The notes under the pieces: model-generated
Told to the model about the DNA's origin: nothing
The model's database searches: none
The model's input: only the letters and a program-made list of their open reading frames with translations
Program-made: the position numbers and the translations under genes
Shown here: one piece after another, positions 8,736 through 36,073 of the stretch
How positions within the stretch are numbered: position 1 is the stretch's first letter
How the letters are laid out: each line of letters opens with the position of its first letter
Assembly (NCBI GenBank): GCA_002731115.1
Contig: PBZO01000001.1
Coordinates: 39,023-75,095 of the forward strand
Source of the DNA: Candidatus Pacearchaeota archaeon
GTDB lineage: Archaea > Nanobdellota > Nanobdellia > Pacearchaeales > GW2011-AR1
Direction of reading: 5' to 3'
DNA length: 36,073 nucleotides

Positions 8736-10211
8736 TCAATCTACCAACTTCTTATAAAGAGAAAGAACATAATGCTCTATCATTAAATTAAAAAAATTAA
8801 ATTTAAACCTTGCTCTAGCAATTGGTTCATAAAGTTTACTTAAAATTTTAATCACTCTTTTTATATCCAACAAATTTGATCCTTTTTGATTAAGAAAATA
8901 AGATGCAAACTGAATATTAGATAACCTTTTTTTCTCCTTAGAATCTACCCAGGGGGTCCTTATTTTATCCCCTGTATATTCTATCCATCCTTCTATTGAT
9001 TTTGGAGACACAAATCCAAATTTTCCTAAATTATTGTATAAGGGAGTCCCTGGATAAGGAGTATAACAATAAACCCCATTTATTTCTGCATGGGGATTTT
9101 CTTTTAATAATCTTAAGGCACTATTTAAGGTTAATTTTACATCTTCTTTAGTTTCTGTTGGAAATCCAACTACAAAATTATATCCCGGAGTAATTTTGAA
9201 TTTTGATATTTTCCTATTTAACTCGAATACATCTTCAATCTTTTGGGGTTTATTAACAAGCTTTAAAATTCTGTTTGACCCACTTTCTACTCCTACTTCT
9301 AATCTCTCTAGTCCCGCTTTACTCATCTTCTTAAAATACATATCACTCATTCTTTTTGAAGAAGGTATTTCCAAAGTTCCTTTCCAAATAATATCCATTT
9401 TATTTTTGATAATATCATCTGCAATTTTCTCCATCCTATCGAGATTAACAAATAAGTTATCATCCAGAAAATCAAAATACCTTATATTATGTTTATGATA
9501 TAATGTAGATATAATTTTAAATGCATTTTCTGCTGTTAACGTTCTCCAACGACTTTTATTAAAAATTGAATTATAACAATAAGTGCAAGCAAAGGGGCAA
9601 CCACGAGATAATTGAACATGTAAACTTCTTCTTCCTTTATATTTCCCAGTATATTTCTCTAAATCAATTAAATTATAAGGAATCTCTGGTAATTTATTCA
9701 AATCAATAAAACCTCTTTCAGGATTACTAATTATTTTCCCCTCCTTACTCTTAAATGAGATTCCTTTTATTGATTTTATATTCTTATTTTTTTCTAAATG
9801 ATTAATTAATTCTTTAAAGGTCTCTTCACCTTCTCCCCTAACAACAATATCTATATTTTTATTTTTTAAGACATTATGAGAATCCAGGGTTGGATGTATT
9901 CCTCCCCAAATAACTGGATAATTACCTTTACTTTTAATTCTTTTACTAATTTCTAGGGCATAATAAAGTTGTTCGCCAGTCATAGAAGTTAAACCAATAC
10001 ATACTGGATTTTTCTCAAGTAATCTATCAATTTTCTTCTCCCAATCAGAATGAATTCTTTGATCAAAAATGATAACTTCATAATCCTTATGAATCATCGA
10101 TGCAACAGATAATAAAGCTAAAGGAATTGCATAATTAGTTTTAACACTATCTAGATAACCTACTTTGGGCTGTATTAATATTACTATATTTTTCTTTGTT
10201 TTTTTAACCAT
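8736..10211 (-). CDS. B12-binding-domain radical SAM protein
   Basis: N-terminal Rossmann/B12-like domain (VIWGGIHPTLDSHNV...VVRGEGEETFKEL), then LSRGCPFACTYCYNS (CX3CX2C). Confidence 0.9.
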   Translation of the reverse strand: MVKKTKKNIVILIQPKVGYLDSVKTNYAIPLALLSVASMIHKDYEVIIFDQRIHSDWEKKIDRLLEKNPVCIGLTSMTGEQLYYALEISKRIKSKGNYPVIWGGIHPTLDSHNVLKNKNIDIVVRGEGEETFKELINHLEKNKNIKSIKGISFKSKEGKIISNPERGFIDLNKLPEIPYNLIDLEKYTGKYKGRRSLHVQLSRGCPFACTYCYNSIFNKSRWRTLTAENAFKIISTLYHKHNIRYFDFLDDNLFVNLDRMEKIADDIIKNKMDIIWKGTLEIPSSKRMSDMYFKKMSKAGLERLEVGVESGSNRILKLVNKPQKIEDVFELNRKISKFKITPGYNFVVGFPTETKEDVKLTLNSALRLLKENPHAEINGVYCYTPYPGTPLYNNLGKFGFVSPKSIEGWIEYTGDKIRTPWVDSKEKKRLSNIQFASYFLNQKGSNLLDIKRVIKILSKLYEPIARARFKFNFFNLMIEHYVLSLYKKLVD

Positions 10212-11194
10212 TTTATTTCGTCGTCAATACTTAATTTTACGGGTTTTGGAGAAAAACCAAGTTCTTTTTTTGCACGAGATATTGAATAATTCCTATCTTG
10301 AGACATTGAATAAACTCTTTTTCTTGAGATAAAAGGTTGTGTTTTGAAAATTTTTGCAAGATACTCAAATATATCACCCATAACTAACATTAAAGGTTCG
10401 GGTATGGGTATAATAATTGGTTTTCTTGAGATGATATTATTCTTAATTAAAGAATTAGCTATCATATTAACTAATTCTCTTTGTTTATATGATTTCTTAT
10501 CAGAAATAATATATGTCCCAAATATCTTGGTATTTTTATTTAGACAACAAATTATTGCATCAGAAACACTATCAACTGATACAAGTATTGTATGAAATTT
10601 TCCTCCACTCAATAATGGAACAAATCCTTTTTTAATCATGTTTACAAGTCTTATAATATCTTTTTTCCGGTCCCCCTTCCCTATTACCCAGGTGGGTCTC
10701 AAAATAAAAACTTTGAGTTTAGATTTACTTGAAGTTTCATGAAGAGCTAATTCAGACTCCCATTTACTTTTCTCATAAGGGATTACTGGATTAGGTTTAC
10801 TATTCTCATCCATTATCCCATTACAATAAGAGCCCATTGCAGCAACACTGCTTAAATATATAAATTTTTTGACTTTTGCCTTTATGCTTGCTTCTGCAAT
10901 AGTTTTTGTTCCTTCTACATTTATTTTCTGATATAATTTGTATGCTTCATCTGAATTTTCAGAAACATTTCCAATACCAACTAAATGTATAACCACATCT
11001 ATTCTTTTTAGACTCTTAACTAACTTATTATAATCTGAGAGTTCACCAATAACAACCTTGCATCCTTTCTTTTCTAATTCTGATTTATATTTAGAATTCC
11101 TAATATAACAGGTTAGATTATTATTCTTTTTTAGTAATTTACCTAATAAATTCAATCCGATAAATCCTGTAATTCCTGTTATAAAAACTTTCAT
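10184..11194 (-). CDS. NAD-dependent epimerase/dehydratase (extended SDR)
   Basis: MKVFITGITGFIGLNLL (GxxGxxG), YLSSVAAMG, PYEKSKWESE (YxxxK). Confidence 0.88.
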   Translation of the reverse strand: MKVFITGITGFIGLNLLGKLLKKNNNLTCYIRNSKYKSELEKKGCKVVIGELSDYNKLVKSLKRIDVVIHLVGIGNVSENSDEAYKLYQKINVEGTKTIAEASIKAKVKKFIYLSSVAAMGSYCNGIMDENSKPNPVIPYEKSKWESELALHETSSKSKLKVFILRPTWVIGKGDRKKDIIRLVNMIKKGFVPLLSGGKFHTILVSVDSVSDAIICCLNKNTKIFGTYIISDKKSYKQRELVNMIANSLIKNNIISRKPIIIPIPEPLMLVMGDIFEYLAKIFKTQPFISRKRVYSMSQDRNYSISRAKKELGFSPKPVKLSIDDEIKWLKKQRKI

Positions 11195-12294
11195 TTAATT
11201 AATCCCCCCAGCCCATATAACAATGTTAGATGTAAATTCTGGGGAATACTTGTATTTGCAGCAACAGCAAGATAACATCCCTTGCAAGTTGGGAATGATT
11301 TATTTTTCACCTTCTTTCTTATTTCATCTGCTTTCTTAGAGAACCATATTTTCTTAAAATCAAAATCCACATTATGTAAATTTCCTAGAGGAGATTTATC
11401 GGCCATCATACAGCAAGCCCATACATTTCCATTAGTTGTTATCTGGACATGGTTAAATGTTGCATAACATGGCAATCCCTTACCTTTAATATATTTATCA
11501 ATATATATCTTTCTTACAAGATTTGTTAATTTTGTTACATTTTTATTAGTGCTATAGACTCTAAAGACTTTAGCAAGATCTTCTTTTTTAGGCAAAATAT
11601 CCGTCTTAATTGTGCCTAGTTCATATCTCAATTCAGAAGGCTCCATTATGTAAACATCGGGTTTTAATTTATTCACAACATAATCATAAATTTTAGGAAC
11701 ATCGTGAACATTCCATTTGCTTACAACAGTATGATAACATAAATTAGGATGTCCATATTTTTTCTGTAGTCTTCTTATAACTTTAGTTGTTTCAAGTAAT
11801 TTTTTCCAATTACCAGGGATCCCTCTTATTTCATCATGCTTTTCTTCAATATGGTCTAGAGAAATATTTACTGTGAGATTTATATCTTTGTTCATTTGCC
11901 TAATAAATTTATCTAAAACTTTTTCTATTCTCTCAGGAAAAGTTGCATTTGTACAAATAGTTAATATTTTTGGTTTTTTATATTTTTGAATTCCTAAAAG
12001 TAATTCATAGGCATCTTTTCTTAGAAATGGCTCTCCTCCAGTAAATACACAAAAAGTAGAAGGGCCCATTGTTTTCCATGTTTTAATCCATTGCTTTGTT
12101 GTCATCTCTTCTTTTGCAAGTTTGGAATTTTTCCTATATTTCTCCCATATATGGCAAGTCTTGCATCTACTATTACATGCATTGGTTACTGAAAAAACAG
12201 AATTTGAAGGCATCATTTTAGGAAATCCAAATGCTCTAAATCCCTTATAACCCATAATCTGAAAAGAATATTTCAAATAATCTATTGTTTTCAT
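11191..12294 (-). CDS. Radical SAM / SPASM-domain protein
   Basis: SVTNACNSRCKTCHIW (CX3CX2C), CVFTGGEPFLRKD, C-terminal Cys-rich region CCMMADKSPLGNLHNVDFDFKKIW...CKGC. Confidence 0.9.
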   Translation of the reverse strand: MKTIDYLKYSFQIMGYKGFRAFGFPKMMPSNSVFSVTNACNSRCKTCHIWEKYRKNSKLAKEEMTTKQWIKTWKTMGPSTFCVFTGGEPFLRKDAYELLLGIQKYKKPKILTICTNATFPERIEKVLDKFIRQMNKDINLTVNISLDHIEEKHDEIRGIPGNWKKLLETTKVIRRLQKKYGHPNLCYHTVVSKWNVHDVPKIYDYVVNKLKPDVYIMEPSELRYELGTIKTDILPKKEDLAKVFRVYSTNKNVTKLTNLVRKIYIDKYIKGKGLPCYATFNHVQITTNGNVWACCMMADKSPLGNLHNVDFDFKKIWFSKKADEIRKKVKNKSFPTCKGCYLAVAANTSIPQNLHLTLLYGLGGLIK

Positions 12295-12341: not shown

Positions 12342-13931
12342 CTATTGTCTTATATTAGATTCATAGATAATTAAAACTGGTTGATTATCCTTTTCATAAA
12401 CTTTGGCTGGAATCCACTTGTCTGCATTTTCCTGGGGATAATTATATGTCCATTGAGGATAAGGCTCAAATATAGATATCATCAAAAATCTTGGATTTAA
12501 CTCCTGTATTTGTTGTTCAAAATCAGATAAATTTCTAGAAAAAGTATATGTATCTCTTTCTGAATAATATTGTACTTGGGGTTGAGAATCACTCATGATT
12601 ATATCTTCTGGGTTTGAATTCTCTTTTAACCATACTCCTGCTTGTTTAACTTCTAAATAAGATGTTTTTTTAACCTCAATTAAACTATTTCCAAATTTAA
12701 TATTTGGAATTAATAAAAGGCTTAGGATTATCAATATTATTAAAATTATAGTAAACTCCTTTAATTTATATTTCTTAATTAAAAAAGATTCTAAAATCAC
12801 AAAAGGAGAAAATGCAATTAAAAATAAAAAGGGTAATGTCTGCATCATATATCTTTGTTCTAAATGGGGGGCAATATACCCTAAAAACATGAGTGCAAAA
12901 GCAACCCATAAAAAAACAAAAAATTTCTTTTGTACAATCTCGTCCTTAAAAATCTTATCAAATCCTAAAAATAGATCAATGAAAAAATAAAAAAACCCGA
13001 TTATAAATAGAAAATAAATTGGACTTAAAACAAATAGTGAACTATAACCTGCTTGATTTCCATCTAATATATAAGGGATATTTTTAATATAAACAAAAAT
13101 AGTTTTAAATCCCCCAACACCTGCAACTTCTCCTGTTTCCGATACACCGGATAATTGTTCAATTCCAAGATGATAGGTTAAAAGATCTATTAATGGATTT
13201 CCATAATGTTGAGCGTGAAGGATAACTTGAGGGGTTATAATTAAACCAAATATTCCAAGAGTTATCCATAGTTGCTTATTTCTTATAAATCTAAATTTTT
13301 CCTTTACAAAGAAAAATATTAAAAAAACTGGTACAAACATTAGATATTGCATTCTTGTCAAGATTGCAAGTGCAAAAAATGCTCCAAAAAGATAAATGAA
13401 TTTATTCCCCTTTTTAAGAACATACCCCTTCCAGAAAAATAGTAATGAAGTTAAGAGAAAAAAAGTTGCTGGAATTGAAGTTAAGGGTCTTGCTGTGAAA
13501 AATAAAAATATCCATGATAAACTTAAGCCCAAACTTGTTAAAAGAGCTAGTTTTTTATTAAACATATCTTTTATTAAAAAATAAGAAGCAGCTATAATCC
13601 CTGTTGAAAATAAGACTTCTGACAATCTTAAACCTACTTCCCCTAATCCTATTTTGAAAAATATTGCACTAAAAAATGGCCAAAAAAATCCTCTTCTATA
13701 ATACCAGGTATCTCTTATATCAAGTCCTAAACCAAATCTTTTTGCAGTTGACAAATAATCTCCCGCATCCCACCAAATAGGCTGATTCATTGTCTTAAAA
13801 AATATCCAAAGCCTTATTAGAAAAGCTGCTGTTAAAATCATTAAAAAAGTTTTATCATAATTATCTGTTATCCAATTAAATAAAACTCCTCTTACTTTTT
13901 CTTCTCTTTTCCCTATATCCGGATTTTCCAT
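12342..13931 (-). CDS. PMT/ArnT-like integral membrane glycosyltransferase (dolichyl-phosphate-mannose-protein mannosyltransferase family)
   Basis: Multi-TM protein with an early acidic loop after TM1 (QPIWWDAGDYLSTAKRFGLGLD), ARPLTSIPATFFLL, APHLEQRYMMQTLPF, and a C-terminal soluble stretch (KENSNPEDIIMSDSQPQVQYYSER). Confidence 0.8.
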   Translation of the reverse strand: MENPDIGKREEKVRGVLFNWITDNYDKTFLMILTAAFLIRLWIFFKTMNQPIWWDAGDYLSTAKRFGLGLDIRDTWYYRRGFFWPFFSAIFFKIGLGEVGLRLSEVLFSTGIIAASYFLIKDMFNKKLALLTSLGLSLSWIFLFFTARPLTSIPATFFLLTSLLFFWKGYVLKKGNKFIYLFGAFFALAILTRMQYLMFVPVFLIFFFVKEKFRFIRNKQLWITLGIFGLIITPQVILHAQHYGNPLIDLLTYHLGIEQLSGVSETGEVAGVGGFKTIFVYIKNIPYILDGNQAGYSSLFVLSPIYFLFIIGFFYFFIDLFLGFDKIFKDEIVQKKFFVFLWVAFALMFLGYIAPHLEQRYMMQTLPFLFLIAFSPFVILESFLIKKYKLKEFTIILIILIILSLLLIPNIKFGNSLIEVKKTSYLEVKQAGVWLKENSNPEDIIMSDSQPQVQYYSERDTYTFSRNLSDFEQQIQELNPRFLMISIFEPYPQWTYNYPQENADKWIPAKVYEKDNQPVLIIYESNIRQ

Positions 13932-13975: not shown

Positions 13976-14881
13976 TTATTTTGTTGATTCTATTCTTTTC
14001 CAAGCATCTGAATATTTCCTATCTTTTACCTTACTATTATAAAATAAATTTAACCAAATATAAAATCTCGCAGGAAAAAGAAGTAATGTAAAAATAAATT
14101 CTTTTAAATCTTTAGGATAGTAGAATAATCTAAAACCATCAAAGATCTCATTTGCAAAAGTTTTCATTCTAGGAATTTTTCGTGGATTTACATATCTACT
14201 AAGTGTGTCATGCGATGCTGCTGCCCTTATCTTTTGTTTGATAAAATCATTAAATTTATTCGGATATCTAACATAAACTTCTGAATTTGGAGCATATCCT
14301 ATTTTATAACCCTTTAAGTAAAACATTATTGGAACAATTGTATCTTCAGCAGTATCTATTGGAAATTTTTTAATTATATAATTCCTAAATGCCCATAAAT
14401 ACCCTGAACATTCTAAGAATTCACCTTTTTTTGCTCTCTTTTTTCTTAATTCATGCGCCCCTGCATCAACTAAAACATGTGACCAATAACCCAGGATAGT
14501 ATTTCTCGGTTCAATTGATCTAGGTCTTCCACTAACACAGCCAACTGTCTTATCTTTGAAATACTTTAAGATTTCATCTACAGAATTTTGGGATACAAAT
14601 ACATCACCATCAGTTAGAATTATTATCTCGCCTTTTAATTTTGGCAAAATAGAATTGAGTGCATAAGATTTCCCTTTACCCTTATCCTTAAAAAGTTTAA
14701 CTTCTTTATATTTTCTAACAACATCATGTGTTTTTTTATCTGGAGCCGATACAATTAATTCATATTTCTCCTTAATATTTTGTTGTAAAAAAGATTCTAT
14801 TGCTTTGCCAATTGTCCTTGGCTCATTAAATGAAGTAATTATTATTGATATCATTTTAAGCTTTATATCTAACTTTATCAT
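13976..14881 (-). CDS. Glycosyltransferase family 2
   Basis: ISIIITSFNEPRTIGKAIES, ILTDGDVFVSQ (DGD), GYLWAFRNYIIKKFPIDTAEDTIVP. Confidence 0.87.
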   Translation of the reverse strand: MIKLDIKLKMISIIITSFNEPRTIGKAIESFLQQNIKEKYELIVSAPDKKTHDVVRKYKEVKLFKDKGKGKSYALNSILPKLKGEIIILTDGDVFVSQNSVDEILKYFKDKTVGCVSGRPRSIEPRNTILGYWSHVLVDAGAHELRKKRAKKGEFLECSGYLWAFRNYIIKKFPIDTAEDTIVPIMFYLKGYKIGYAPNSEVYVRYPNKFNDFIKQKIRAAASHDTLSRYVNPRKIPRMKTFANEIFDGFRLFYYPKDLKEFIFTLLLFPARFYIWLNLFYNSKVKDRKYSDAWKRIESTK

Positions 14882-16391
14882 ACCAAACCTTAAAACTAGA
14901 GGGAAAAGAATGATAAATTGGTTTTAAAACTCTTTCTCTAAAGGAATCATAAATTTCTACAAAGTATAATATGAAATAAGTAAATCTAATATATCTAATA
15001 TTTTTTCTAACTCTTTTAGGAATTAATAACCAATTAATTAAAAAATTAGGCATAGGTCCAAATCTTGTCTTTGTAACAGACCCCCTCATTAAATTAAGAA
15101 TTAAAATTGGATAGGCATTTTTACTTTTAAGTTTAATATGTTTTGCCCTATCCCAATAATTAAGTTGATATGCTGCATCTGATTCTTTCTTTATTAATCC
15201 GTCTATTTTTGCTCTAGTATAAAGTTTGGTTCCTGGAAAAAATACTAAATTGTTTACTGATAAAAAATAGGGTTTTCTTAATTTCTGTAAGAGTTTTATT
15301 AGATTGATTATATCTTCAGTAGACTCATAAGGGTTGCATGTTATAACATCATACATTACTGCAAGTTTATTCTTATATTTATTGATAATTTTACTTGCTC
15401 TAATTATTGCTTCATCTGATTGTGCACGGTGATAAATCTCCTTATTTGTTCTCTCTGTACCTTGTATTCCAATAATTATATCTGTACATCCTGCATCTAC
15501 AAGTAATTTAACTTTTTCATCAGTTATTGTTTTTGGATCTGCCAAGCATTTAAATCTCATATTAACCTTTTCCTTGTATAATCTACAGAATTTTTTTATG
15601 TCTTCTAAACTTCTTAATGAAAAAGTATCATCTCTTATATCAAAATAACCTAGTGTCGGAAATTTCTTTTTAATCTCAAGTATTCCATTTATTATATATT
15701 CAGGAGAATGCCATCTTAAAACTTTTTTTCTCTTTCCTTTGTAAAGTTCATTAAAAAGGCTATTGCTACAATAGTCACATCCATAAGGGCAACCTCTGCC
15801 TGTTAAAAAAAAAATTTGTCCATCTAAATCATTTTCCTTAAATTTTCTAATTATTCCATTATCTAAAATATAGTGGTCTTTGATGTCATAATCTGGAAGA
15901 GGGAGAATATCTAAATTATCTACTAAATTTCTTACAGGATTCTTAATTATCTTATCTTGTTTTTTTATCCAAAGATTTTTTATTTTGTCTATTTTTTTGT
16001 TTTTATTTATTGCATCTGCTAGCTCTAAAATCGCCTCTTCTGCTTCTCCAACACAAATAATATCTGCATATTCTATGCAGTCTTGGGGGGAAATTGTTGT
16101 ATGAACTCCTCCATAGATTATTGGTATATTTAGTCGCTTTTTTAGAAAATTTATTATTCTTGAAGCCCTATTGGCCGTTGATGCAAAAGAATTTATTCCA
16201 ATTAAATCACTTCCATTACAGATTCTTTCTAATTGCAATAATTCTTGTTTCGTATAATTCTTTGAATAATCTTCACTTAATCTCATAAAAACTATTTCTA
16301 CATCATATCCTTTATCTTTTAAAACCGCTGAAATAGTTCTTATTCCCTGGTCAGAGGGGTATGTTGCAGGGGATATTAAGGTTATTTTCAT
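14856..16391 (-). CDS. B12-binding-domain radical SAM protein
   Basis: MKITLISPATYPSDQGIRTISAVLKDKGYDVEIV (B12-like domain), YGGVHTTISPQDCIEYADIICVGEAEEAI, LTGRGCPYGCDYCSNS (CX3CX2C). I prefer the ATG at 16391 over the listed TTG at 16400 because of the TATA-like box at 16411-16420. Confidence 0.9.
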   Translation of the reverse strand: MKITLISPATYPSDQGIRTISAVLKDKGYDVEIVFMRLSEDYSKNYTKQELLQLERICNGSDLIGINSFASTANRASRIINFLKKRLNIPIIYGGVHTTISPQDCIEYADIICVGEAEEAILELADAINKNKKIDKIKNLWIKKQDKIIKNPVRNLVDNLDILPLPDYDIKDHYILDNGIIRKFKENDLDGQIFFLTGRGCPYGCDYCSNSLFNELYKGKRKKVLRWHSPEYIINGILEIKKKFPTLGYFDIRDDTFSLRSLEDIKKFCRLYKEKVNMRFKCLADPKTITDEKVKLLVDAGCTDIIIGIQGTERTNKEIYHRAQSDEAIIRASKIINKYKNKLAVMYDVITCNPYESTEDIINLIKLLQKLRKPYFLSVNNLVFFPGTKLYTRAKIDGLIKKESDAAYQLNYWDRAKHIKLKSKNAYPILILNLMRGSVTKTRFGPMPNFLINWLLIPKRVRKNIRYIRFTYFILYFVEIYDSFRERVLKPIYHSFPSSFKVWYDKVRYKA

Positions 16392-16410
16392 ATTTAACAA
16401 GAATAAATGG

Positions 16411-20955: not shown

Positions 20956-20974
20956 GAAAAAATCCAATTATTCA

Positions 20975-25445: not shown

Positions 25446-26056
25446 GAAAGAATATATAAAATATCTCTTGCAAAACTTTGAGGGAATATCTTTGCTAAAA
25501 AATTCTTAAAAACTTGTGGTAAAAAAGAAGGATTGGTTGAGGCAATATAATCTTTCTTTAAAACTTTAAATCCACTATTAATTAAAAATCTTTCTCCTGT
25601 TTTTATTGAAAAATAATGCAAATGTCCATAAGGATCAAAGGGATTTTCTGTTATAGACCTATTAAAGAGAAATCTAACCTTATTTAGAAGATGATAATCA
25701 TTAGGAAGAGTTATAATAATCTTCCCCGATTCATTTAATCTTTTTTTTGATTCAATAAGAAGCTTTTTTGAATCTATTACATGTTCTAAGATATCTAATA
25801 GAAGAATATAATCAAACTTTTGATTTTTAAATGGAATTTCATCTTTATTTAAATCAGCTTGTTTAGCTTTTATATTCTTTTTAATTAGTTTATTAACTAG
25901 ATTTTTATCGATATCTACCCCATAATATTTACAATTTGGGATAAACCTCCTGAACATCCCATTATTACATCCAATATCCAATACTTTAGAATTCTCTCTA
26001 ATTAATTCTGCAACTTTCTTAAACTTATTCTCCAAAAAAATTTGATGATTGCCCAT
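25442..26056 (-). CDS. Class I SAM-dependent methyltransferase
   Basis: SKVLDIGCNNGMFRRFI, IPFKNQKFDYILLLDILEHVIDSKKLLIESKKRLNESGKIIITLPN. Confidence 0.86.
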   Translation of the reverse strand: MGNHQIFLENKFKKVAELIRENSKVLDIGCNNGMFRRFIPNCKYYGVDIDKNLVNKLIKKNIKAKQADLNKDEIPFKNQKFDYILLLDILEHVIDSKKLLIESKKRLNESGKIIITLPNDYHLLNKVRFLFNRSITENPFDPYGHLHYFSIKTGERFLINSGFKVLKKDYIASTNPSFLPQVFKNFLAKIFPQSFARDILYILS

Positions 26057-27067: not shown

Positions 27068-27465
27068 CTATAGTCCTAATTTTTCCTTATTTTGCACAAT
27101 AAAATTTAGGTAGTACTGAGCAAGTTTTATTTTAAATAATTCCTTAAATTTAAAATAATTTAATGTTGACCCTCATTTAATTTTATTTTATTTAAGGGTG
27201 TATCTACTTTGCCAACAAAGATGGAATTACTGCAATTATCACTTGCAAAAATCTCTCCAAGAAACTCTATTTTATTTATATTAACATTTTCTATCTCCTC
27301 GTTTATTTCTCTTTTAATTGCTTCTAAATCTGTTTCATCTCCCTCTATTCTCCCTCCAATAAAATCCCAATATCCTGGAAAAGGTATATCCAATTTATTG
27401 TCTCTTAAAAATAACAAGAATTCTTTCTTAGAATTTAATAATATTATTTTTGATGCTCTCTCCAT
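27068..27465 (-). pseudogene. NUDIX hydrolase interrupted by an apparent single-base (-1) frameshift near 27160-27168
   Basis: The ORF at 27160..27465 has a NUDIX-box-like GGRIEGDETDLEAIKREINEEIEN but stops right after KLNEGQH. The adjacent minus-strand frame continues as TLNYFKFKELFKIKLAQYYLNFIVQNKEKLGL* (stop at 27068-27070), the expected NUDIX C-terminus. Together they give about 132 aa, a normal NUDIX length. Confidence 0.72.
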
Positions 27466-27535: not shown

Positions 27536-28516
27536 TTATTCCTTATGAATATATTCTAAGGGGAGTGTTTTAATTACATCCCAATTTTTATCTACCCACT
27601 TAACACATTGTTCAATTCCTTTATCAAAATCTACTTTGGGTCTCCAATTAAATCTTTCTCTTGCTTTACTTGAATTTAGAATATATTCCTTATCTTGCCC
27701 TTTTCTTTCATCAACTATCTCAGAAAAATCATCAAAATCTTTTCCTATTTTATTAGAGATCTTCCTAACTAGATTATTAATACTAATTCCTGAATCTGGA
27801 GATAAATGATATACTTCCCCCTTATTAGTATCCTCTAATATCTTTAATATACCACTACAATCATCTTTAACATGAAGGTAAGATTTTATTGCTTTTCCTC
27901 CTCCTTGAAGTTGTAATTTCTTTCCTAATTTAGCATAAATTATTGTGCGAGGGATAATCCTAAATAATTGTTGGCAAGGGCCATATACATTAGTAGATCT
28001 TACAAAATTTGCAGGAAAATTAAATTGTTTTACCAAATTTTGTATAAACATATCTCCTGCTGCTTTCGATGATGCATAAGGAGTACTGGGATTATAAGAT
28101 GTATTTTCATCAATTTCATTGCATGAACCATAAACTTCCGGAGTAGAAATCTGAACATATTTCTCAAAGGATTTTATCTTTCTTAATTTATTTGTTAAAT
28201 TAGCAATTCCTAAACAATTAGTACGAAACCAATGTTCTGGATTATCCCAACTTTGTCCAACCATCCCCTGAGCAGCAAAATTAACTACTTTTTTTACATC
28301 TTCTTTTCTAAGAATATTAACTATATTGCTTAAATCATCATTTATATTTTCTTGAAAAAATTTAAATCCTTCTTTACCTTTGTATGGAAGAAAGATCGAA
28401 TTAGATTCTGGAGATCTGCTAATTCCGATTACTTTATAATCAGTATTTTCCAAAAGGTGGTCAACAAAATGAGCTCCTGAAAATGAATTACTTCCAATAA
28501 CTGCAACTTTCTCCAT
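27536..28516 (-). CDS. NAD-dependent epimerase/dehydratase (extended SDR; nucleotide-sugar 4,6-dehydratase/epimerase-like)
   Basis: VAVIGSNSFSGAHFVDHLL, VQISTPEVYGS, PYASSKAAGD (YxxxK), NVYGPCQQLFRIIPRTI. Confidence 0.87.
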   Translation of the reverse strand: MEKVAVIGSNSFSGAHFVDHLLENTDYKVIGISRSPESNSIFLPYKGKEGFKFFQENINDDLSNIVNILRKEDVKKVVNFAAQGMVGQSWDNPEHWFRTNCLGIANLTNKLRKIKSFEKYVQISTPEVYGSCNEIDENTSYNPSTPYASSKAAGDMFIQNLVKQFNFPANFVRSTNVYGPCQQLFRIIPRTIIYAKLGKKLQLQGGGKAIKSYLHVKDDCSGILKILEDTNKGEVYHLSPDSGISINNLVRKISNKIGKDFDDFSEIVDERKGQDKEYILNSSKARERFNWRPKVDFDKGIEQCVKWVDKNWDVIKTLPLEYIHKE

Positions 28517-28555: not shown

Positions 28556-29689
28556 TTAAATAAAATTAATATGTAGCGGACGTTTTCCTTTTGGTTCTTC
28601 TAATTTAATTTTCCCTTGTTTTAAATCCCATAAATACTCGTTAATTCTATCTTGGCAGCACATGACTCCGCAATCAGTATGAACATTATGTTTATTAGAT
28701 GCTAGATGATTTACAACTTCCCAATATTTATCACTTTTTAAGATATCTTTAAAAGGTTCTTCTGTGATATTTCCTATATGGTGTTTTTGGTATTTTGAAT
28801 TAAAAAGTTGGCCACATGGAGCAACTAATCCTGAACCGGATAATTGCATAAGAAAAGGGGTTCCATAACATTTAGAATATTTCTTTCTCCCTCCACTTAG
28901 AATTTTAGACCATTTAGCCTTAACAAAATAATTTTCATCAGAATATGTTTCAGCTTCTTTTAAAATATTAATTAAATCAGATTCAAGATATTCTTGATAA
29001 TCTGATCCAAGCTTTCTTTTTTCATCATCACTACAATGTTTTATGACTAAGTAATCTACTCCAAGGTTTTTTCCTAATTTTGTAAGAGGAATAACATCTT
29101 CCTTAAACTTTGGCATAAATACCATTTGCATTCCAATTGTTACATCTAATTTTTTTTCTTTTTTAATTTTAACACTCTTTTTAATATTCTCTATAACTTT
29201 ATAGAACTCTTCTTCCTTACAACCATGAATTTCCGAATATCTTTTTGGGATCCCTGCAGAAATATTAAATCTGAACCAGGTGGAAGAAGATAATATGCTT
29301 CCCAATTCTTCTTCCTTTAAAAGAGCACCATTTGTTGCAACAGCCATGTCTATTCCATTCTTTTTTCCATAAACTAAAGTCTCTGCAAAATGAGGGGAAA
29401 CCGTGCTTTCGCCATCTCCCATAAGAATTACTCCTTTAACACCCATTTCTGCACAATCATCTAGAAATCTAAAGGTGTGTTTCTTAGACATCTTAGTATT
29501 ATCATTTTCTTGCAATTGACTATAACAATAAGTGCATTTGTAATTACAAGCTCTTGTTAAAGCATAATCTATTGTAATGGGGACAATTCTTTCACCCCTT
29601 AACCATGCTTCAACTCTATCTTTATGCCAAGCTAATTTATGCCCATCCAAAATTATTGGTTCTTCTCTCTTTTTTCCTTCTTTGTTCAT
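28556..29689 (-). CDS. Radical SAM / SPASM-domain protein (paralogue of the next gene)
   Basis: DYALTRACNYKCTYCYSQL (CX3CX2C), ILMGDGESTVSPHF, LVAPCGQLFNSKYQKHHIGNITEEPFKDILKSDKYWEVVNHL...CGVMCC. Confidence 0.9.
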   Translation of the reverse strand: MNKEGKKREEPIILDGHKLAWHKDRVEAWLRGERIVPITIDYALTRACNYKCTYCYSQLQENDNTKMSKKHTFRFLDDCAEMGVKGVILMGDGESTVSPHFAETLVYGKKNGIDMAVATNGALLKEEELGSILSSSTWFRFNISAGIPKRYSEIHGCKEEEFYKVIENIKKSVKIKKEKKLDVTIGMQMVFMPKFKEDVIPLTKLGKNLGVDYLVIKHCSDDEKRKLGSDYQEYLESDLINILKEAETYSDENYFVKAKWSKILSGGRKKYSKCYGTPFLMQLSGSGLVAPCGQLFNSKYQKHHIGNITEEPFKDILKSDKYWEVVNHLASNKHNVHTDCGVMCCQDRINEYLWDLKQGKIKLEEPKGKRPLHINFI

Positions 29690-29731: not shown

Positions 29732-30772
29732 TTATATAAAGTTATCATGAGATCTTGGATTCTTTACCCTATGGAGATATCTATTAAGAGGATCTAATCT
29801 ACACCCTTCCCTGCATCCTTCAATATTTATCTTTTTGCTAATCTCTTTCCTTTTTTTCCCTTCCCAAATTTCTGAAAAAGAATTTTTATATAAATTCCCG
29901 TAAGTAAATTTTCCCTCTTTATAAAATAAATTGCAGGGGATAATATTCCCTTTTGAATCTATTAATGTAAAAAAAGGAAGTCCATGACATTCAGAATAAT
30001 TAATTCCTTCATTAATTCTTTTTGCTGTTTGTCTTCTAAATAAAATCTTAAAATTATCTGAATTAAATCCTGCTAATTTTCCTTCAAGTTTATTAAATTC
30101 ACTAATTCCTATTGCATAATTATTATTACTATTTGGGTGTTTAGAATAAGGTTTAATTTGAAGATTATCTACTCCAATATCTCTTAATATCCTTGCAAGT
30201 TTTGGGGCCTCATCTATATTTTGGGATATTGCTAAAAATTGGATTCCTATTGTTGTATCTAAATTATTCCTTATCTTATACTCAGTACATCTTTCTATAT
30301 TTCCTATGACTCTAGAGAAATCTTTCTCACTTGTTCCATGAACCTCTGAATAATTTTTAGAGCTACCTGAATTAACACTAAATCTTAACCATGAAAGATG
30401 GGGTAAAATTTGACTTATCTTTTTATCATTAAAAGGAACGCCATTTGTGGTTATAGAAACATCCATCCCTTCTTGTTTTGCAGTTTTTACAAATAGACTT
30501 ATCTCCTTATGTAATAAAGGTTCTCCTTCTCCTGCAAACATTACTGATTTTATCCCTTGTTCCCCCATATCTTTTAATGTTTGCAACATAACATCCTTAT
30601 CAATAAAATCTTTTCCATATTCTAAATAAGAAAGCGCACAAAATCCACATCGATGATTACAAGTATTTGTGGGTCCTATTTCTGCATAAATTGGAGCGCA
30701 ATCTCCTTTTTCTTCCCATTCAGAAACTCTTTCAGGGTGATACATTAGTTTATGATTATCTACATCAGTCAT
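29732..30772 (-). CDS. Radical SAM / SPASM-domain protein (paralogue of the preceding gene)
   Basis: EIGPTNTCNHRCGFCALSYLE (CX3CX2C), VMFAGEGEPLLHKEI, NIIPCNLFYKEGKFTYGNLYKNSFSEIWEGKKRKEI...CREGC. Confidence 0.9.
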   Translation of the reverse strand: MTDVDNHKLMYHPERVSEWEEKGDCAPIYAEIGPTNTCNHRCGFCALSYLEYGKDFIDKDVMLQTLKDMGEQGIKSVMFAGEGEPLLHKEISLFVKTAKQEGMDVSITTNGVPFNDKKISQILPHLSWLRFSVNSGSSKNYSEVHGTSEKDFSRVIGNIERCTEYKIRNNLDTTIGIQFLAISQNIDEAPKLARILRDIGVDNLQIKPYSKHPNSNNNYAIGISEFNKLEGKLAGFNSDNFKILFRRQTAKRINEGINYSECHGLPFFTLIDSKGNIIPCNLFYKEGKFTYGNLYKNSFSEIWEGKKRKEISKKINIEGCREGCRLDPLNRYLHRVKNPRSHDNFI

Positions 30773-31878
30773 TTTTTATTTTTAAAGAATTTATGAATAG
30801 TCTCTATTACATATTCTACTTGTTCATTAGTTAACTCTGGATAAATTGGGAGAGATAAAATCTCTTTACATATCTTCTCTTGCAGGGGAAGATGATAATT
30901 AAGGAGGTTTAACTTTTGATTATGGTATAATGGTTTTGAAAAATGAGAAAATATCTCTATTCCATTTAGTTTTAGAAAATCAATAAGTTCTTGATGATAA
31001 GATGTACGAATAACATAGGAGTTATATGTATCAAAAAAATCTTGTGGTGATGGGGAAGGTGGAAGTATCAAGGGCAAATCTGCTAATCTTTTAGAATAAA
31101 TAGATGCTATTTCTCTTCTTCTTTTTATCCAATTATCAAGTAGTTTAAATTTTATATTTAATAAAGCTGCATGAAGATTATCTAATCTACTATTATAACC
31201 AAAATCAAAGATATCTCCTCTTGTTTTTTGGCCATGGTTTCTCAAATATCTTATTTTTTCAGCTATTTCATCATTATTTGTAGAAATAAATCCACCGTCT
31301 CCAGCACAACTAAGAGTTTTTAATGGATGTGTGGAAAAACATCCTGCAAGTCCAAAACTCCCTGCTTTCTTACCTTTATATAACGAGCCAAGAGATTGAC
31401 AGGCATCTTCTATGATTATTAAATTATGTTTTTGTGCTAGCTCCATTAATTTACCCATATCACATATTCTTCCATTTAAATGAACAGGAATTATTGCTTT
31501 TGTCTTAGAGGTTATTGCTTTCTCAACTTCTTCCATGTCCATATTAAAGTCATCCTTAATATCAACTAAAATTGGTTTAGCTTTTCTATGAACTATTGCT
31601 GCAATTGTTGCAATAAAAGTATGTGCAACAGTAATAACTTCATCTCCTTCTTTTATCCCTGCAACTTCTACAGAAAGGGATAAAGCATCTGTTCCAGAAT
31701 TAACTCCTATAACATGTTTTACTCCAAGGTATAATGCCATATTATTCTCAAATTTTTCAACATCATTTCTAAGAATAAAACTTCCTTCATTCATAACTCT
31801 CTTAAATTCTTCTGTAATTTCCTGCTCTGAATTCTTAAATTGCAAAGAAAGATCAATAAAGGGAACTTTCCACTTCAT
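30769..31878 (-). CDS. DegT/DnrJ/EryC1/StrS family aminotransferase
   Basis: VPFIDLSLQF, VNSGTDALSLSVE, EDACQSLGSLYKGKKAGSFGLAGCFSTHPLKTLSCAGDGGF (PLP-Lys region). Confidence 0.95.
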   Translation of the reverse strand: MKWKVPFIDLSLQFKNSEQEITEEFKRVMNEGSFILRNDVEKFENNMALYLGVKHVIGVNSGTDALSLSVEVAGIKEGDEVITVAHTFIATIAAIVHRKAKPILVDIKDDFNMDMEEVEKAITSKTKAIIPVHLNGRICDMGKLMELAQKHNLIIIEDACQSLGSLYKGKKAGSFGLAGCFSTHPLKTLSCAGDGGFISTNNDEIAEKIRYLRNHGQKTRGDIFDFGYNSRLDNLHAALLNIKFKLLDNWIKRRREIASIYSKRLADLPLILPPSPSPQDFFDTYNSYVIRTSYHQELIDFLKLNGIEIFSHFSKPLYHNQKLNLLNYHLPLQEKICKEILSLPIYPELTNEQVEYVIETIHKFFKNKK

Positions 31879-32827
31879 TTTTTAATAAATTTTTTACCTC
31901 CTTATAAACAGTTTTTGGAGAAATAGATTCCATACACAATTCTTCTTCATTACATCTTACATCAAAACAGGGAATACACTTTTTATATCCTTCTGGCAAA
32001 ATTGCTTTTCCTCTGCCATAAAAATGAACTTCTTTATGAGGTGTTGGTCCAAAAAGCCCCAATACTTTCTTCTTAAGAGCTATTCCTAGATGCATACCTA
32101 AACTATCATTTGTGGCAACTAACCTACAAGAATCAATCCAATCAATATATTTATTTAGATTTGTAAGGATTTCATCAGATTGCTTATCTTGCCTACTTAC
32201 TTTAAGTCCATCTTTGACTAAAATTGATTCTAATTCATCCCAATTTTTTTTAGACCAGCTTTTTATGGGCCACTTAGGGCCAATTTGAGTATTCAACCCT
32301 ACATCATAAATTTCCTTATTATTTGGTTTATAACCTAAGACATATTCCTCCTCTTCCCATTTCTTACCAACAATTTCAAACAAAAGTTTTTGAGCAGTTT
32401 GCAAATTATTTTTTTTAAGATGCGGGCTAATACTCAAGGATAATATATCAAAGGCATTATCAAATGCCCCTGTTTTTCCCAACTTCCGATCAAATCTAAA
32501 TCCTTTTTTATTCCAAGCATCTATTTTATTTGCAAATCTACAAATATCCTTATCCTTTTCTAGATTAATTAAAGTATCGAATTCTTCATCTAATAAATGT
32601 ATTGCATTTTCAAAATCAAGATATAATAATCTATCAATATATTTATTTTGTTTTAATAAAGGAAATGCAGATTTATCTGTTAACCATGTAACATTACTTT
32701 TTTTATAAAGATTTAATAATGCTGTTGATCTTAAAATATCTCCTAAACTAACTTTCTTTAGATGATTTTCCACATCTAAAATCTCAGAATAACCTGTTTT
32801 AATAATTAATACTCTCTCCTTTTCCAT
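31853..32827 (-). CDS. Glycosyltransferase family 9 (heptosyltransferase-like)
   Basis: VLIIKTGYSEILDV...SLGDILRSTALLNLYK, LNTQIGPKWPIKSWSKKNWDEL, VATNDSLGMHLGIALKKKVLGLFGPTPHKEVHFYGRG. ATG at 32827 preferred over the listed 32878 because a TATA-like ttttaaatt (minus strand) lies about 25 nt upstream of it. Confidence 0.82.
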   Translation of the reverse strand: MEKERVLIIKTGYSEILDVENHLKKVSLGDILRSTALLNLYKKSNVTWLTDKSAFPLLKQNKYIDRLLYLDFENAIHLLDEEFDTLINLEKDKDICRFANKIDAWNKKGFRFDRKLGKTGAFDNAFDILSLSISPHLKKNNLQTAQKLLFEIVGKKWEEEEYVLGYKPNNKEIYDVGLNTQIGPKWPIKSWSKKNWDELESILVKDGLKVSRQDKQSDEILTNLNKYIDWIDSCRLVATNDSLGMHLGIALKKKVLGLFGPTPHKEVHFYGRGKAILPEGYKKCIPCFDVRCNEEELCMESISPKTVYKEVKNLLKNEVESSLY

Positions 32828-32880
32828 GTAAATGCAAGATAAAGATGAATTTAAAAAGATTATGTATCTAAAATTCAATC

Positions 32881-34146
32881 TTATTTATCTTTAACAACAT
32901 TCTTAACAAACTTCTCTAATCTTGGAAAATTCTTATTCATATCAAAATCTTTTCTTGCTTTTTTGACATTTTCTATAAGTTTTGAATAATTTAGTTTATT
33001 TAGTCTCTTTTTTAATGTCTTTAGATTTTGAATTTTATAGGGTATATTAATCTTATAATTAGTTAACAATTCTCCTGTAAAAATAGCATCATCCTCATAG
33101 ATAAGTGGAAGTCCTGCTTCTAAATAAGAAGCTATCTTATTCCCTGTTGAAAATTTTAATTCTAAATCATACTCTGATAATTCTGTTTTTGGTCCTGAAG
33201 GATAAAGTCCGTAATCATAATTAGATATCTCTGCTGCAATTTTATCTGGTTCTAAGGGGGAATGGAGATGGAAATAATTTGATTTTAAAAGACTTCCATA
33301 CGATTTTGTGAATTCAGATTCTTCTTTAAAGAATTTCATTAATTGCTCTTTTGAAATAGAATTAGGTCTTGAATATATGTGTATATGAATTTTTTGATTT
33401 ACTAAATCTTTTAAGGTATTATAAACATATCTTGCCCCAATAGGTCCAACACTTCCCATAGAATCTATATGAACTATATGAATCTCTTTATCTTTTCTTG
33501 AAAGTTTATTTTTATTAATAGGAACATTGAATTCTTTTGAACAATAAGGAAGAAAACTTAAAGTAAGGGGGGATAATTTTATTTTATCCCCTAACATTCT
33601 TCCATTTAAGAATTCTAATTCTCTTGGATAACCCTTATGAATTATTCCATCTGCATTTTCAAAACAAAACCTCTCTGCCTTGAGCTCAAATTTTGACATT
33701 CCTCCAAATTTTATTGCATGTTCTACACTCTTATAATATTGGCAACGAATATCGTAAGGAAAATAAATAATTGGAATTTTTTTAAATAACTTCATAGTTA
33801 ATGCACAAGGCCAACTTGGAGAGCCTCTAGTAAAAATAACATAAGGTTTTAATTTTAAAATTGAGATAATTGACTCTATTAATCCCTTTAATTTCTTAAC
33901 AAGAGACATTAAGATTAAATGAACATTTTTTAAATTTATCTTGAAAAAACTAAGATCAAAAAAGATTATCTTATCAAAAGCTCCTTTATGAAATTCCTTT
34001 GAAGCTCCTTTTGATTCCAAAAGAATTATCAAAATTGTTTTATAGCCTTTCTTTCTAAATAGTCTTGCTATTTTATAAACCATAACTGTTGGAAAGGGTT
34101 CTAAAAAAACTATTTGTTTTTTATTTTTCTGTTTAAATTTCATCAT
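32881..34146 (-). CDS. GT-B type glycosyltransferase-like protein
   Basis: KQIVFLEPFPTVMVYKIARLFRKKGYKTILI, IVHIDSMGSVGPIGARYVYNTL, FSTGNKIASYLEAGLPLIYEDD. Confidence 0.7.
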   Translation of the reverse strand: MMKFKQKNKKQIVFLEPFPTVMVYKIARLFRKKGYKTILIILLESKGASKEFHKGAFDKIIFFDLSFFKINLKNVHLILMSLVKKLKGLIESIISILKLKPYVIFTRGSPSWPCALTMKLFKKIPIIYFPYDIRCQYYKSVEHAIKFGGMSKFELKAERFCFENADGIIHKGYPRELEFLNGRMLGDKIKLSPLTLSFLPYCSKEFNVPINKNKLSRKDKEIHIVHIDSMGSVGPIGARYVYNTLKDLVNQKIHIHIYSRPNSISKEQLMKFFKEESEFTKSYGSLLKSNYFHLHSPLEPDKIAAEISNYDYGLYPSGPKTELSEYDLELKFSTGNKIASYLEAGLPLIYEDDAIFTGELLTNYKINIPYKIQNLKTLKKRLNKLNYSKLIENVKKARKDFDMNKNFPRLEKFVKNVVKDK

Positions 34147-34227: not shown

Positions 34228-34818
34228 ATGAGTATTACAAAAGAATATCTTATTAATTTTGAAGAAGAGATAAAAAATTTATTTTTAAATAGAAAAATAA
34301 AAGGACCAATTCATTTGAGTGTTGGTAGTGAAGATTATCTAATTAAAATTTTTAAAAAAATAAAAGAACAAGATTGGGTATTTTCTACGCATAGGCCCCA
34401 TTACCATGCATTATTAAAAGGCATACCTAGAGAAAAAGTAAAAGAAGAAATACTTGCAAAAAGAAGTATGCATATCAGTAGTAAAGAGTATAAATTTTTT
34501 ACTTCAGCAATTGTTGGAGGGAATTTGCCTATAGCTGTTGGAACTGCAATGGGGATTAAAAGAAAAGGCCTTGATGAAAAAGTATGGTGTTTTACAGGTG
34601 ATATGGCTGCAGAAACAGGAATTTTTCATGAATGTGTAAAATACTCTAAAGGACATAATTTACCCATAACTTTTGTAGTTGAAGATAATGGATTGGGAGT
34701 TGCAACCCCTACAAGAGAGGTATGGGGAATTACAGATAACGCTAAATCTAATATTACAAAATTTAAATATTCTAGAAAATATCCCCATGTAGGTTGTGGG
34801 AAATCTATAACTTTCTAA
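34228..34818 (+). CDS. Small thiamine-pyrophosphate enzyme, E1-alpha/transketolase N-terminal-like subunit
   Basis: STHRPHYHALLKGIP, GGNLPIAVGTAMGIK, CFTGDMAAETGIFHECVKYSKGHNLPITFVVEDNGLGV (GD...N TPP-binding region). Confidence 0.85.
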   Translation: MSITKEYLINFEEEIKNLFLNRKIKGPIHLSVGSEDYLIKIFKKIKEQDWVFSTHRPHYHALLKGIPREKVKEEILAKRSMHISSKEYKFFTSAIVGGNLPIAVGTAMGIKRKGLDEKVWCFTGDMAAETGIFHECVKYSKGHNLPITFVVEDNGLGVATPTREVWGITDNAKSNITKFKYSRKYPHVGCGKSITF

Positions 34819-34819: not shown

Positions 34820-35347
34820 ATGATTTATAAAGATGAATTAACAAAAGCTATGAAAATTCTTGCAAAAGATAAAAAAGTTTTATTTTTAGGTCAAACAGTG
34901 GGATATAAAGGAAGTGCCCTGCATGAGAGTCTAGAAAAGATATCTAAATCAAAAAGAATAGAACTCCCTGTAATGGAAGATACTCAAATAGGAATCTCTA
35001 CTGGATTAAGTTTACAAGGATATATCCCTGTTTCTGTTTTTCCAAGATTTGATTTCTTAATTTGTGCTACAAATCAATTAGTTAATCATCTAGAAAAAAT
35101 AAGTGAAATGACTAATAATGAATTTAATCCAAAAGTAATAATACGGACTGCTGTTGGTGCAACATCTCCTTTATATCCAGGAGTTCAACACTGTTCAGAT
35201 TATACAGAAGCATATAAATTAATGTTAAAAAATATTGAAGTAGTAAAACTAGAAAATAAAGAAGATATAGTCCCTGCATATAAAAAAGCATTAAAAAATA
35301 AAAAATCTAGTTTATTAGTTGAATTTTCTAATAAATATAATACCTAA
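34820..35347 (+). CDS. Small thiamine-pyrophosphate enzyme, E1-beta/transketolase pyrimidine-binding-like subunit
   Basis: IYKDELTKAMKILAKDKKVLFLGQTVGYKGSALHESL, ELPVMEDTQIGISTGLSLQGYIPVSVFPRFDFLICATNQLVNHLEKI; one base after the partner's stop. Confidence 0.83.
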   Translation: MIYKDELTKAMKILAKDKKVLFLGQTVGYKGSALHESLEKISKSKRIELPVMEDTQIGISTGLSLQGYIPVSVFPRFDFLICATNQLVNHLEKISEMTNNEFNPKVIIRTAVGATSPLYPGVQHCSDYTEAYKLMLKNIEVVKLENKEDIVPAYKKALKNKKSSLLVEFSNKYNT

Positions 35348-35348
35348 A

Positions 35349-36073
35349 ATGTCATCAAATTTAGACTTACTTTTAATTAATGTTGGAGGAACAAAAAAGA
35401 AAGTATATCAAGATTTAAGCAAAGATTTTTCTGCAATAGAACCTCCATTTTGGGCTGCATTAACAGCCGGGTTTATCAGAAATAAGGGCTATAATGTAAA
35501 AATAATAGATGCAAATGCAGAAAACTTAACTCATAAGGAAACAGCAAGAATTGTAAAAGAAGATAATCCAAAATTAACTAATATTGTTGTTTATGGTCAA
35601 CATCCTTCAGCATCAACACAATTAATGACAGGTGTTGGAGAATTATCTAATGAAATAAAAAAAATAGAACCAAATAGAAAAATAATCTTAACAGGACTTC
35701 ACCCATCTGCACTGCCTAGAAGAACCTTAAAAGAAGAAAATTGTGATTTTGTCTGTCAAGGAGAAGGATTTTACACTCTACAAGGATTGTTAGAAAACTC
35801 TAAACCGAATAATATCCCTGGATTATGGTGGAAAGAAAATGGAAATATAAGAAATACTCCAAGAGAAAAAAATATGCAAAATCTCTCTAAAGAATTAGAT
35901 AGTGTTGCATGGGATTTATTGCCAATGGATAAATATAAAGCTCATAACTGGCAGTGTCTAGATAACTTGGATTCAAGATTTGGATATGCATCTATCTCGA
36001 CAAGTCTTGGTTGTCCTTTTACATGTGATTTTTGTTCTATTCATGAAACTTTTGGAGAAAAAAGAATAAGAAC
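35349..36073 (+). CDS. B12-binding-domain radical SAM protein, 3'-truncated by the window edge
   Basis: Not in the ORF track. Reads MSSNLDLLLINVGGTKKKVYQDLSKDFSAIEPPFWAALTAGFIRNKGYNVKIIDANAENL...ILTGLHPSALPRRTLKEENCDFVCQGEGFYTLQGL...SISTSLGCPFTCDFCSIHETFGEKRIR with no stop to the edge (CX3CX2C). Confidence 0.9.
   Translation, partial: MSSNLDLLLINVGGTKKKVYQDLSKDFSAIEPPFWAALTAGFIRNKGYNVKIIDANAENLTHKETARIVKEDNPKLTNIVVYGQHPSASTQLMTGVGELSNEIKKIEPNRKIILTGLHPSALPRRTLKEENCDFVCQGEGFYTLQGLLENSKPNNIPGLWWKENGNIRNTPREKNMQNLSKELDSVAWDLLPMDKYKAHNWQCLDNLDSRFGYASISTSLGCPFTCDFCSIHETFGEKRIR

Follow-up and report, generated by a model that had tools for sequence, protein, structure and literature searches.

In Euryarchaeota, the genes for N-glycosylation cluster with aglB, as in the agl clusters of Haloferax volcanii and others, where glycosyltransferases (GTs) and further glycan genes are grouped with the gene for the oligosaccharyltransferase AglB (PMC8993221). 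Bacterial O-antigen and capsule loci keep hypervariable glycan cargo at a fixed site, together with a Wzx-type flippase. Radical S-adenosylmethionine (rSAM) enzymes are known from sugar and lipid pathways. In apramycin biosynthesis AprD4, a diol dehydratase, and its NADPH-dependent reductase AprD3 deoxygenate a sugar at C3', and GenK and GenD1 are sugar precedents for cobalamin-dependent C-methylation (PMC5461906); rSAM lipid enzymes are established in archaea, with Gms homologues in DPANN archaea (PMC11186832, PMC8941075). DesI and DesII, a DegT-family aminotransferase and an rSAM ammonia-lyase, act in desosamine formation, and the ADP-heptose pathway employs GmhA, HldE and HldD, with GT9-family transferases. 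Here we describe a locus from Candidatus Pacearchaeota archaeon (GCA_002731115.1, contig PBZO01000001.1, called C1 below) that recalls each of these systems in part. The window, the whole stretch of 36,073 nucleotides that was analysed, corresponds to C1:39023-75095 of a 15-contig, 484,604-base Pacearchaeota-like DPANN assembly (G000) that is 80.5% complete (Table 1).

The locus resembles the euryarchaeal agl clusters in its grouping of GTs and other glycan genes with AglB, but differs from them in holding up to 14 rSAM genes, in its fixed site between the spc/SecY genes and SecD/SecF, and in its hypervariable content. AglB with its WWDYG motif, a PF00953 initiating GT, members of the GT2, GT4, GT9 and PMT families and a Wzx-like flippase, all features of agl loci, are present together. 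We conclude, with a probability of about 0.72, that the island is a chromosomal N-glycan (agl) assembly locus and that its rSAM enzymes are glycan-tailoring cargo. The preliminary description, made from the sequence of the window, had proposed a tailoring island of rSAM and glycan genes; the analysis bears out that this DPANN archaeon has a glycan-assembly island, but it is not free-standing, being the cargo of a larger AglB locus. The observation is real, and the kind of locus is known. In the open-licence papers searched, we found nothing on rSAM enzymes in DPANN glycan loci or on cargo of this kind at such a fixed site.

A profile search of the genome gave 15 PF04055 matches in all, and 14 of these genes lie between C1:47,758 and 85,551, a span of 37.8 kb within an island of about 50 kb. 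Under uniform placement of rSAM genes over the genome, the chance of finding 14 of 15 within 10.3% of its length is about 2e-13. The single gene outside the island (C1:14,338-15,330) encodes TYW1 (337 bits; cut-off 318). All eleven rSAM open reading frames reported for the window were found in place with their CX3CX2C motifs. Ten of them match PF04055 above the cut-off, and the eleventh (35319 onward), which is cut by the window end, reaches 66.9 bits when read as the full 498-amino-acid protein. Eleven was nevertheless an undercount for the island, since three more rSAM genes follow beyond the window (L003:2289-3446, L003:6952-8331 and L003:9941-11551); all 14 proteins carry the motif and match PF04055 above the cut-off. 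The five N-terminal B12-binding domains described for the window were confirmed by Pfam, as were AglB, the GT2, GT4, GT9 and PMT enzymes, the short-chain dehydrogenases/reductases (SDRs), DegT, the methyltransferases and the thiamine pyrophosphate (TPP) enzymes. Six proteins had been called SPASM-like; five match PF13186, whereas the sixth, rSAM-8, gave no match to Pfam SPASM, and what it shows is limited to cysteines in its C-terminal part and a partial match to the SCIFF maturase.

Comparison of the flanks showed that the locus occupies a shared site in the order spc ribosomal-protein operon, SecY, SpoIIM-like gene, AglB, cargo, SecD, SecF. This order is present in G002, G003, G012, G045 and G046 and, across two contigs, in G001 and G047; G036 has the AglB and SecDF borders in common with G000. 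Relatives with the same borders span genus, family and order, a Wzx-like gene lies beside SecDF in most of those compared, and AglB carries the WWDYG catalytic motif in each of the 12 genomes examined. The cargo between these borders varies widely. The site holds 14 of 15 rSAM genes in G000, at least 8 of 10 in G001, 9 of 16 in G036, 8 of 14 in G047 and 3 of 11 in G046, and only one in G002, G003, G012 and G045. The clustering was significant in G036 (P 4e-5) and G046 (P 0.005) as well as in G000, and was without significance in the single-rSAM genomes tested; for G001 and G047, in which the locus is split over contigs, rSAM genes were counted and clustering statistics left out. A universal association of rSAM genes with AglB was rejected on the single-rSAM genomes, although co-localisation with AglB and glycan genes does recur among relatives. 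The most fitting reading of the AglB-SecDF site is that of a hypervariable N-glycan locus with a cargo of 1 to 14 rSAM genes. Its borders are fixed and its rSAM cargo changes; therefore the locus behaves like a bacterial O-antigen locus in which rSAM enzymes are optional, with the differences that the archaeal AglB serves as the transferase and that the locus is rich in rSAM genes.

Such variable cargo might also be expected of a permissive hotspot in which rSAM genes were gathered by transfer without serving a single pathway. Every island rSAM scores better with a relative from another genome (up to 90% identity, same genus) than with the other island members, in keeping with this view; mutual identity among the 14 is 32% or less, by which tandem duplication of one rSAM gene was also rejected. 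The remaining cargo, however, is overwhelmingly glycan-related, and the association of one SPASM enzyme with TPP and SDR genes, described below, is kept across phyla. Overlaps of 4-29 bp join SDR1 to B12rSAM-1, SPASM-10 to DegT and the TPP beta half to B12rSAM-11, suggesting co-translation. In tetranucleotide composition the island is the same as the rest of C1; therefore its rSAM genes do not look recently arrived, and a recent insertion of foreign DNA was rejected. We regard a hotspot of this kind as quite improbable.

The family assignments bear on what the enzymes may act upon. The NCBIfam scan covered 13 of the 14 island rSAMs, B12rSAM-13 being assigned by Pfam only, and among the matches listed (the 25 best for each protein) none of the 13 reached a curated cut-off. 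Housekeeping functions in tRNA modification or cofactor maturation were rejected on this basis; TYW1 lies outside the island. Neither of the outcomes that would have counted against the preliminary description, mostly housekeeping assignments or a lack of recurrent co-localisation with glycan genes, was thus obtained. B12rSAM-4 gave the best value seen for NF033070 (AprD4), 80.6 bits against a cut-off of 500, and SPASM-10 scored 38.5 bits with TIGR04426 (DesII), against 450. For B12rSAM-11 and B12rSAM-14 the top sub-cut-off scores were with HpnJ (for example 174 of the required 578 bits), and the ladderane-lipid model TIGR04072 recurred among the sub-cut-off matches. These scores, together with the rSAM lipid enzymes established in archaea, would suit a reading in which the B12-type enzymes act chiefly on archaeal lipids, whether on tetraether rings, on headgroups or on the polyprenyl carrier, like Tes, Grs and Gms, and merely share the locus. 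All lipid-family scores fall far under the curated cut-offs, in a comparison that took in neither Grs nor calditol synthase directly; moreover, the neighbouring genes encode AglB, GTs, SDRs, DegT and TPP enzymes, and in bacteria, whose lipids differ, heptose-sugar genes still accompany the cassette around SPASM-10. A role mainly in lipid modification therefore seems to us unlikely.

The strongest comparative clue, which the preliminary description overlooked, is a recurrent cassette of SPASM-10, SPASM-9, rSAM-8, a nucleoside diphosphate (NDP)-sugar dehydratase-like SDR, a TPP pair and a GT9 enzyme. In the window, SPASM-10 overlaps DegT and is followed by SPASM-9, SDR2, a NUDIX gene and rSAM-8; GT9 lies upstream and the TPP pair at a distance of 3.5 kb, and another split transketolase comes after SPASM-12, beyond the window end. 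A search with SPASM-10 (29732-30772) in one genome per species gave relatives at 59 loci across archaea and bacteria, in Pacearchaeota/Nanoarchaeota, Methanoregula, Methanocalculus, Omnitrophota, Planctomycetes, Proteobacteria, Nitrospinae and Butyrivibrio; the nearest named records found are metagenome-assembled genomes of Candidatus Pacearchaeota. Among the 35 strict loci, a TPP-enzyme gene lies within 5 kb in 22, often directly downstream, SDR2 occurs in 18, SPASM-9 in 10, HldE-like proteins in 20 and GmhA-like proteins in 13, the HldE- and GmhA-like scores being under the equivalog cut-offs. The 120 unselected neighbours at 17 loci were dominated by the Pfam families Transket_pyr, Radical_SAM, CTP_transf_like, E1_dh, PfkB and Epimerase, then SIS_2 and GT2. 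GT9 stands beside the cassette in several loci, and in methanogens SDR, HldE, GmhA, SPASM-10, TKT_N and TKT_C form a compact operon (L051). In a separate sample of the phylum, the SPASM-10 family was present in 24 of 377 genomes, with a TPP gene within 1.5 kb in 7 of the 9 best non-self loci and in none of the distant single-match loci; TPP adjacency as a trait of the whole superfamily was rejected, as it is confined to the closer homologues.

These data place the cassette near the ADP-heptose pathway, with HldE-like, GmhA-like and SDR members elsewhere and GT9 in several loci; unlike that pathway, it adds two rSAM enzymes and a split TPP enzyme. The overlap of SPASM-10 with a DegT gene recalls DesI/DesII, whereas DegT lies within 5 kb in only 3 of the 35 strict loci and the DesII model scored far below its cut-off. 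Two further features of the family were observed. SPASM-10 and SPASM-9 end in a conserved H-x-N-F-I tail, which for SPASM-10 is found in archaea and bacteria (L042-L082). An acetolactate-synthase-type TPP enzyme of about 590 amino acids occurs in some SPASM-10 loci (L011:15848-17623, L022:7893-9680, L042 and L082), and some of these loci have no split TPP pair, so that the one type of TPP enzyme may stand in for the other.

We modelled SPASM-10 with AlphaFold2 (AF2) and obtained a predicted local distance difference test score (pLDDT) of 94.7. In an alignment of 43 homologues, Cys 38/42/45 of the rSAM cluster and the four auxiliary cysteines, Cys 262/280/320/324, are invariant. The nearest solved folds found by Foldseek are SuiB, which acts on a peptide, and DesII and BlsE, which act on sugars; DesII has the top query-normalised template modelling (TM) score, 0.73, among the matches listed. 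Since SPASM domains typically mark peptide maturases and SPASM-10 has its best Foldseek E-value with SuiB, the island might be taken for a cluster of the type that makes ribosomally synthesised and post-translationally modified peptides (RiPPs), in which the SPASM enzymes act on ribosomal peptides. The AglB-SecF stretch is 98% coding, with no intergenic gap larger than 149 bp, leaving little space for precursor genes, and on this measure no adjacent precursor was seen; among the matches listed, all RiPP models stayed below cut-off; the context is one of nucleotide-sugar and GT genes in both archaea and bacteria. We consider a RiPP-type cluster very unlikely.

The seven B12-binding domains of the island lack DxHxxG, as in class B enzymes. 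B12rSAM-4, the one B12-type enzyme of the seven that was modelled (pLDDT 87), has AprD4 (6fd2) as its nearest fold (TM 0.74 both ways, 20% identity), followed by MgmA, OxsB and TsrM; likeness to AprD4 by fold was assessed for this enzyme alone. The B12-like domain of AprD4 is degenerate. The island has an overlapping B12rSAM-SDR pair that resembles AprD4/AprD3 in its logic, but this pair is SDR1 with B12rSAM-1, not B12rSAM-4; an SDR with a B12rSAM-1-type enzyme was found again in L048. Because AprD4 is the nearest fold of the modelled enzyme, we regard deoxygenation as no less likely than C-methylation for the B12-type enzymes. It is possible, though we do not favour it, that the B12-type enzymes act as cobalamin-dependent C-methylases of class B and build a heavily C-methylated glycan, a variant of the glycan-tailoring reading rather than an exclusive alternative. 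The missing DxHxxG, the cobalamin-dependent methylase MgmA as second-best fold of B12rSAM-4 and the sugar precedents GenK and GenD1 speak for it. Against it stand the AprD4 fold of the single enzyme modelled, the curated methylase models, for which six of the seven proteins were below cut-off among the matches listed (B12rSAM-13 being outside the NCBIfam scan), and the FecCD permease, a cobalamin-importer fold, which was not found in five genomes, although G000 is incomplete and other import routes exist. The heavy C-methylation of the preliminary description, which was drawn solely from the B12-binding domain, is thus not upheld. Separately, B12/rSAM proteins of about 476-486 amino acids with CX4CX2C (such as CWWGKCTFC) in place of CX3CX2C were seen at G001:C13:9436-10896, G024:C30:10114-11571, G036:C1:348116-349573, G054:C13:5932-7389 and G054:C34:38231-39661; four of the five lie in the AglB loci of relatives.

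In the glycan-tailoring reading, the GT4-family enzyme (Glycos_transf_4) would prime polyprenyl phosphate, the GT2, GT4, GT9 and PMT enzymes would extend the chain, the Wzx-like flippase would turn the glycan outward, and AglB would move it onto protein. Activated sugars of unusual kinds would come from the SDR, DegT, nucleotidyltransferase and TPP enzymes, and on these sugars or on the lipid-linked glycan the 14 rSAM enzymes would change C-H and C-O bonds. The cassette would most likely make and transfer a modified heptose-like or branched higher-carbon sugar. Among the B12-type enzymes at least one is an AprD4-like candidate for radical deoxygenation, and others may be cobalamin methylases.

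Several points weigh against this reading. What we observe directly is the anatomy of the locus, its conserved site, the clustering of the rSAM genes, the conservation of the cassette and the predicted folds, while the destination of the glycan and the substrates, reactions and products of the island rSAMs are what we infer; a common locus is no proof of a common pathway; and SPASM-10 has its best Foldseek E-value with the peptide maturase SuiB. In several relatives the site holds a single rSAM gene, so that the enzymes are optional. Neither GmhA nor HldE turned up in the island of the window itself, and candidates of these types in the same genome are confined to contig C2, which is compositionally foreign (tetranucleotide distance 0.29 versus at most 0.18 on C1, with equal GC content) and may be misbinned or derived from a mobile element. 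C2 was accordingly rejected as evidence of heptose in G000, and the heptose reading, well supported for the cassette, therefore applies to G000 only by analogy. The C2 locus L101 (G000:C2:1-7276) encodes a GmhA-like/cytidylyltransferase fusion, an HddA-like kinase, DegT, a formyltransferase and an SDR.

We also analyzed the supply of cofactors. Archaeal S-adenosylmethionine (SAM) synthetase (PF01941) and SufB/D were not found in G000, G001, G036, G047 and G054, while archaeal controls were positive; the PF01941 search left out G003, G012, G045 and G046, and G000 is 80.5% complete, yet G054, which is about 100% complete, is likewise unmatched. These five genomes have 10-22 rSAM genes each. A bacterial-type SAM synthetase is present in one of nine genomes and IscU in eight of nine, with only G036 of the five being without IscU. 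The simple reading is that SAM is imported from the host. A bolder proposal, which we hold as speculative, is that of radical-edited archaeal N-glycans, in which a symbiont without its own SAM or cobalamin would turn a heptose-type precursor, by means of rSAM and split TPP enzymes, into deoxygenated or carbon-branched higher-carbon sugars, tying its surface to the cofactors of the host. If true, archaea and bacteria would share, in the rSAM and TPP cassette, a sugar pathway that has yet to be described.

The locus takes up about one tenth of the assembled length and 14 of 15 rSAM genes, a costly investment for a reduced genome, and suggests that the surface sugars are heavily remodelled by as yet uncharacterised radical chemistry. 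DPANN archaea live attached to other cells, and it is probably through their surface glycans that they meet hosts and viruses. With SAM synthetase apparently lacking, the host dependence of this surface chemistry becomes testable, and the cassette, which is kept in Pacearchaeota, methanogens, Omnitrophota and Proteobacteria, offers an expressible enzyme set for a possible new sugar pathway.

Table 1. Genes of the locus, with positions in the window unless another locus is named.
Feature	Position	Strand	Evidence and remarks
AglB/STT3 oligosaccharyltransferase, left island border	3..2426	+	Pfam STT3, STT3-PglB_core; WWDYG at window 1527
Glycos_transf_4 initiating GT (DPAGT1/MraY/WecA-type)	2428..3423	+	PF00953 1.2e-29
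LPG_synthase_TM-family membrane protein	3423..4355	+	PF03706
GT2, DPM-synthase-like	4356..5117	+	PF00535
GT2	5172..6149	+	PF00535/PF13641
Phosphodiesterase/alkaline-phosphatase-like	6135..7307	-	PF01663; homologues in G024, G036, G054 AglB loci
Unannotated conserved 464-amino-acid protein	7340..8734	+	Homologues in G024, G036, G054 AglB loci, 29-41% identity; no match in Pfam scan
B12rSAM-1, B12-binding/rSAM (CPFACTYC)	8736..10211	-	PF04055 1.4e-22, PF02310 6.5e-18
SDR1, 28-bp overlap with B12rSAM-1	10184..11194	-	PF01370
SPASM-2, rSAM/SPASM (CNSRCKTC)	11191..12294	-	PF04055, PF13186
PMT/GT39-like membrane glycosyltransferase	12342..13931	-	PF13231
GT2	13976..14881	-	PF00535
B12rSAM-3, B12-binding/rSAM (CPYGCDYC)	14856..16400	-	PF04055, PF02310; orthologues 69-87%
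Nucleotidyltransferase-GT4-type glycosyltransferase fusion	16507..18381	+	PF00483 + PF00534
B12rSAM-4, B12-binding/rSAM (CPFNCIFC)	18416..19777	+	PF04055 9e-28, PF02310; Foldseek 6fd2 (AprD4) TM 0.74
SPASM-5, rSAM/SPASM (CNFRCKIC)	19788..20891	-	PF04055, PF13186
B12rSAM-6, B12-binding/rSAM (CPGRCTYC)	20954..22486	+	PF04055, PF02310
GT4-type glycosyltransferase	22486..23661	+	PF00534 1.9e-34
SAM methyltransferase	23651..24382	+	PF08241
SPASM-7, rSAM/SPASM (CNLKCEMC)	24384..25445	+	PF04055, PF13186
SAM methyltransferase	25442..26056	-	PF13489
rSAM-8 (CNLSCSFC)	26087..27010	-	PF04055 8.6e-9; homologues 49-64% identical in cassette loci
NUDIX hydrolase	27160..27465	-	PF00293
SDR2, NDP-sugar 4,6-dehydratase-like	27536..28516	-	PF16363; TIGR01181 1.8e-65, under cut-off
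SPASM-9, rSAM/SPASM (CNYKCTYC), cassette member	28556..29689	-	PF04055, PF13186; homologues 58-67% identical in cassette loci
SPASM-10, rSAM/SPASM (CNHRCGFC), cassette member	29732..30772	-	PF04055, PF13186; AF2 pLDDT 94.7
DegT/DnrJ/EryC1 sugar aminotransferase, 4-bp overlap with SPASM-10	30769..31878	-	PF01041 1e-106
GT9 heptosyltransferase-family glycosyltransferase	31853..32878	-	PF01075; again in cassette loci
Glycosyltransferase-like protein, weak assignment	32881..34146	-	PF13439 at E 0.013 only; beside GT9 in G001, L042
TPP enzyme alpha half (E1_dh)	34228..34818	+	PF00676 8e-24
TPP enzyme beta half (Transket_pyr)	34820..35347	+	PF02779
B12rSAM-11, B12-binding/rSAM (CPFTCDFC), cut by window end	35319..36073	+	Complete at L003:341-1837
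Wzx-like flippase	L003:8370-9902		Polysacc_synt (Pfam)

The 5' end of AglB lies outside the window, and the full protein of 926 amino acids is encoded at C1:38668-41448. Beyond the window, the genes follow in the order NUDIX, SPASM-12, split transketolase, CgeB-like GT, B12rSAM-13, Wzx-like flippase, B12rSAM-14, SecD and SecF, and a small membrane protein is also among the right-flank genes with the flippase, SecD and SecF.

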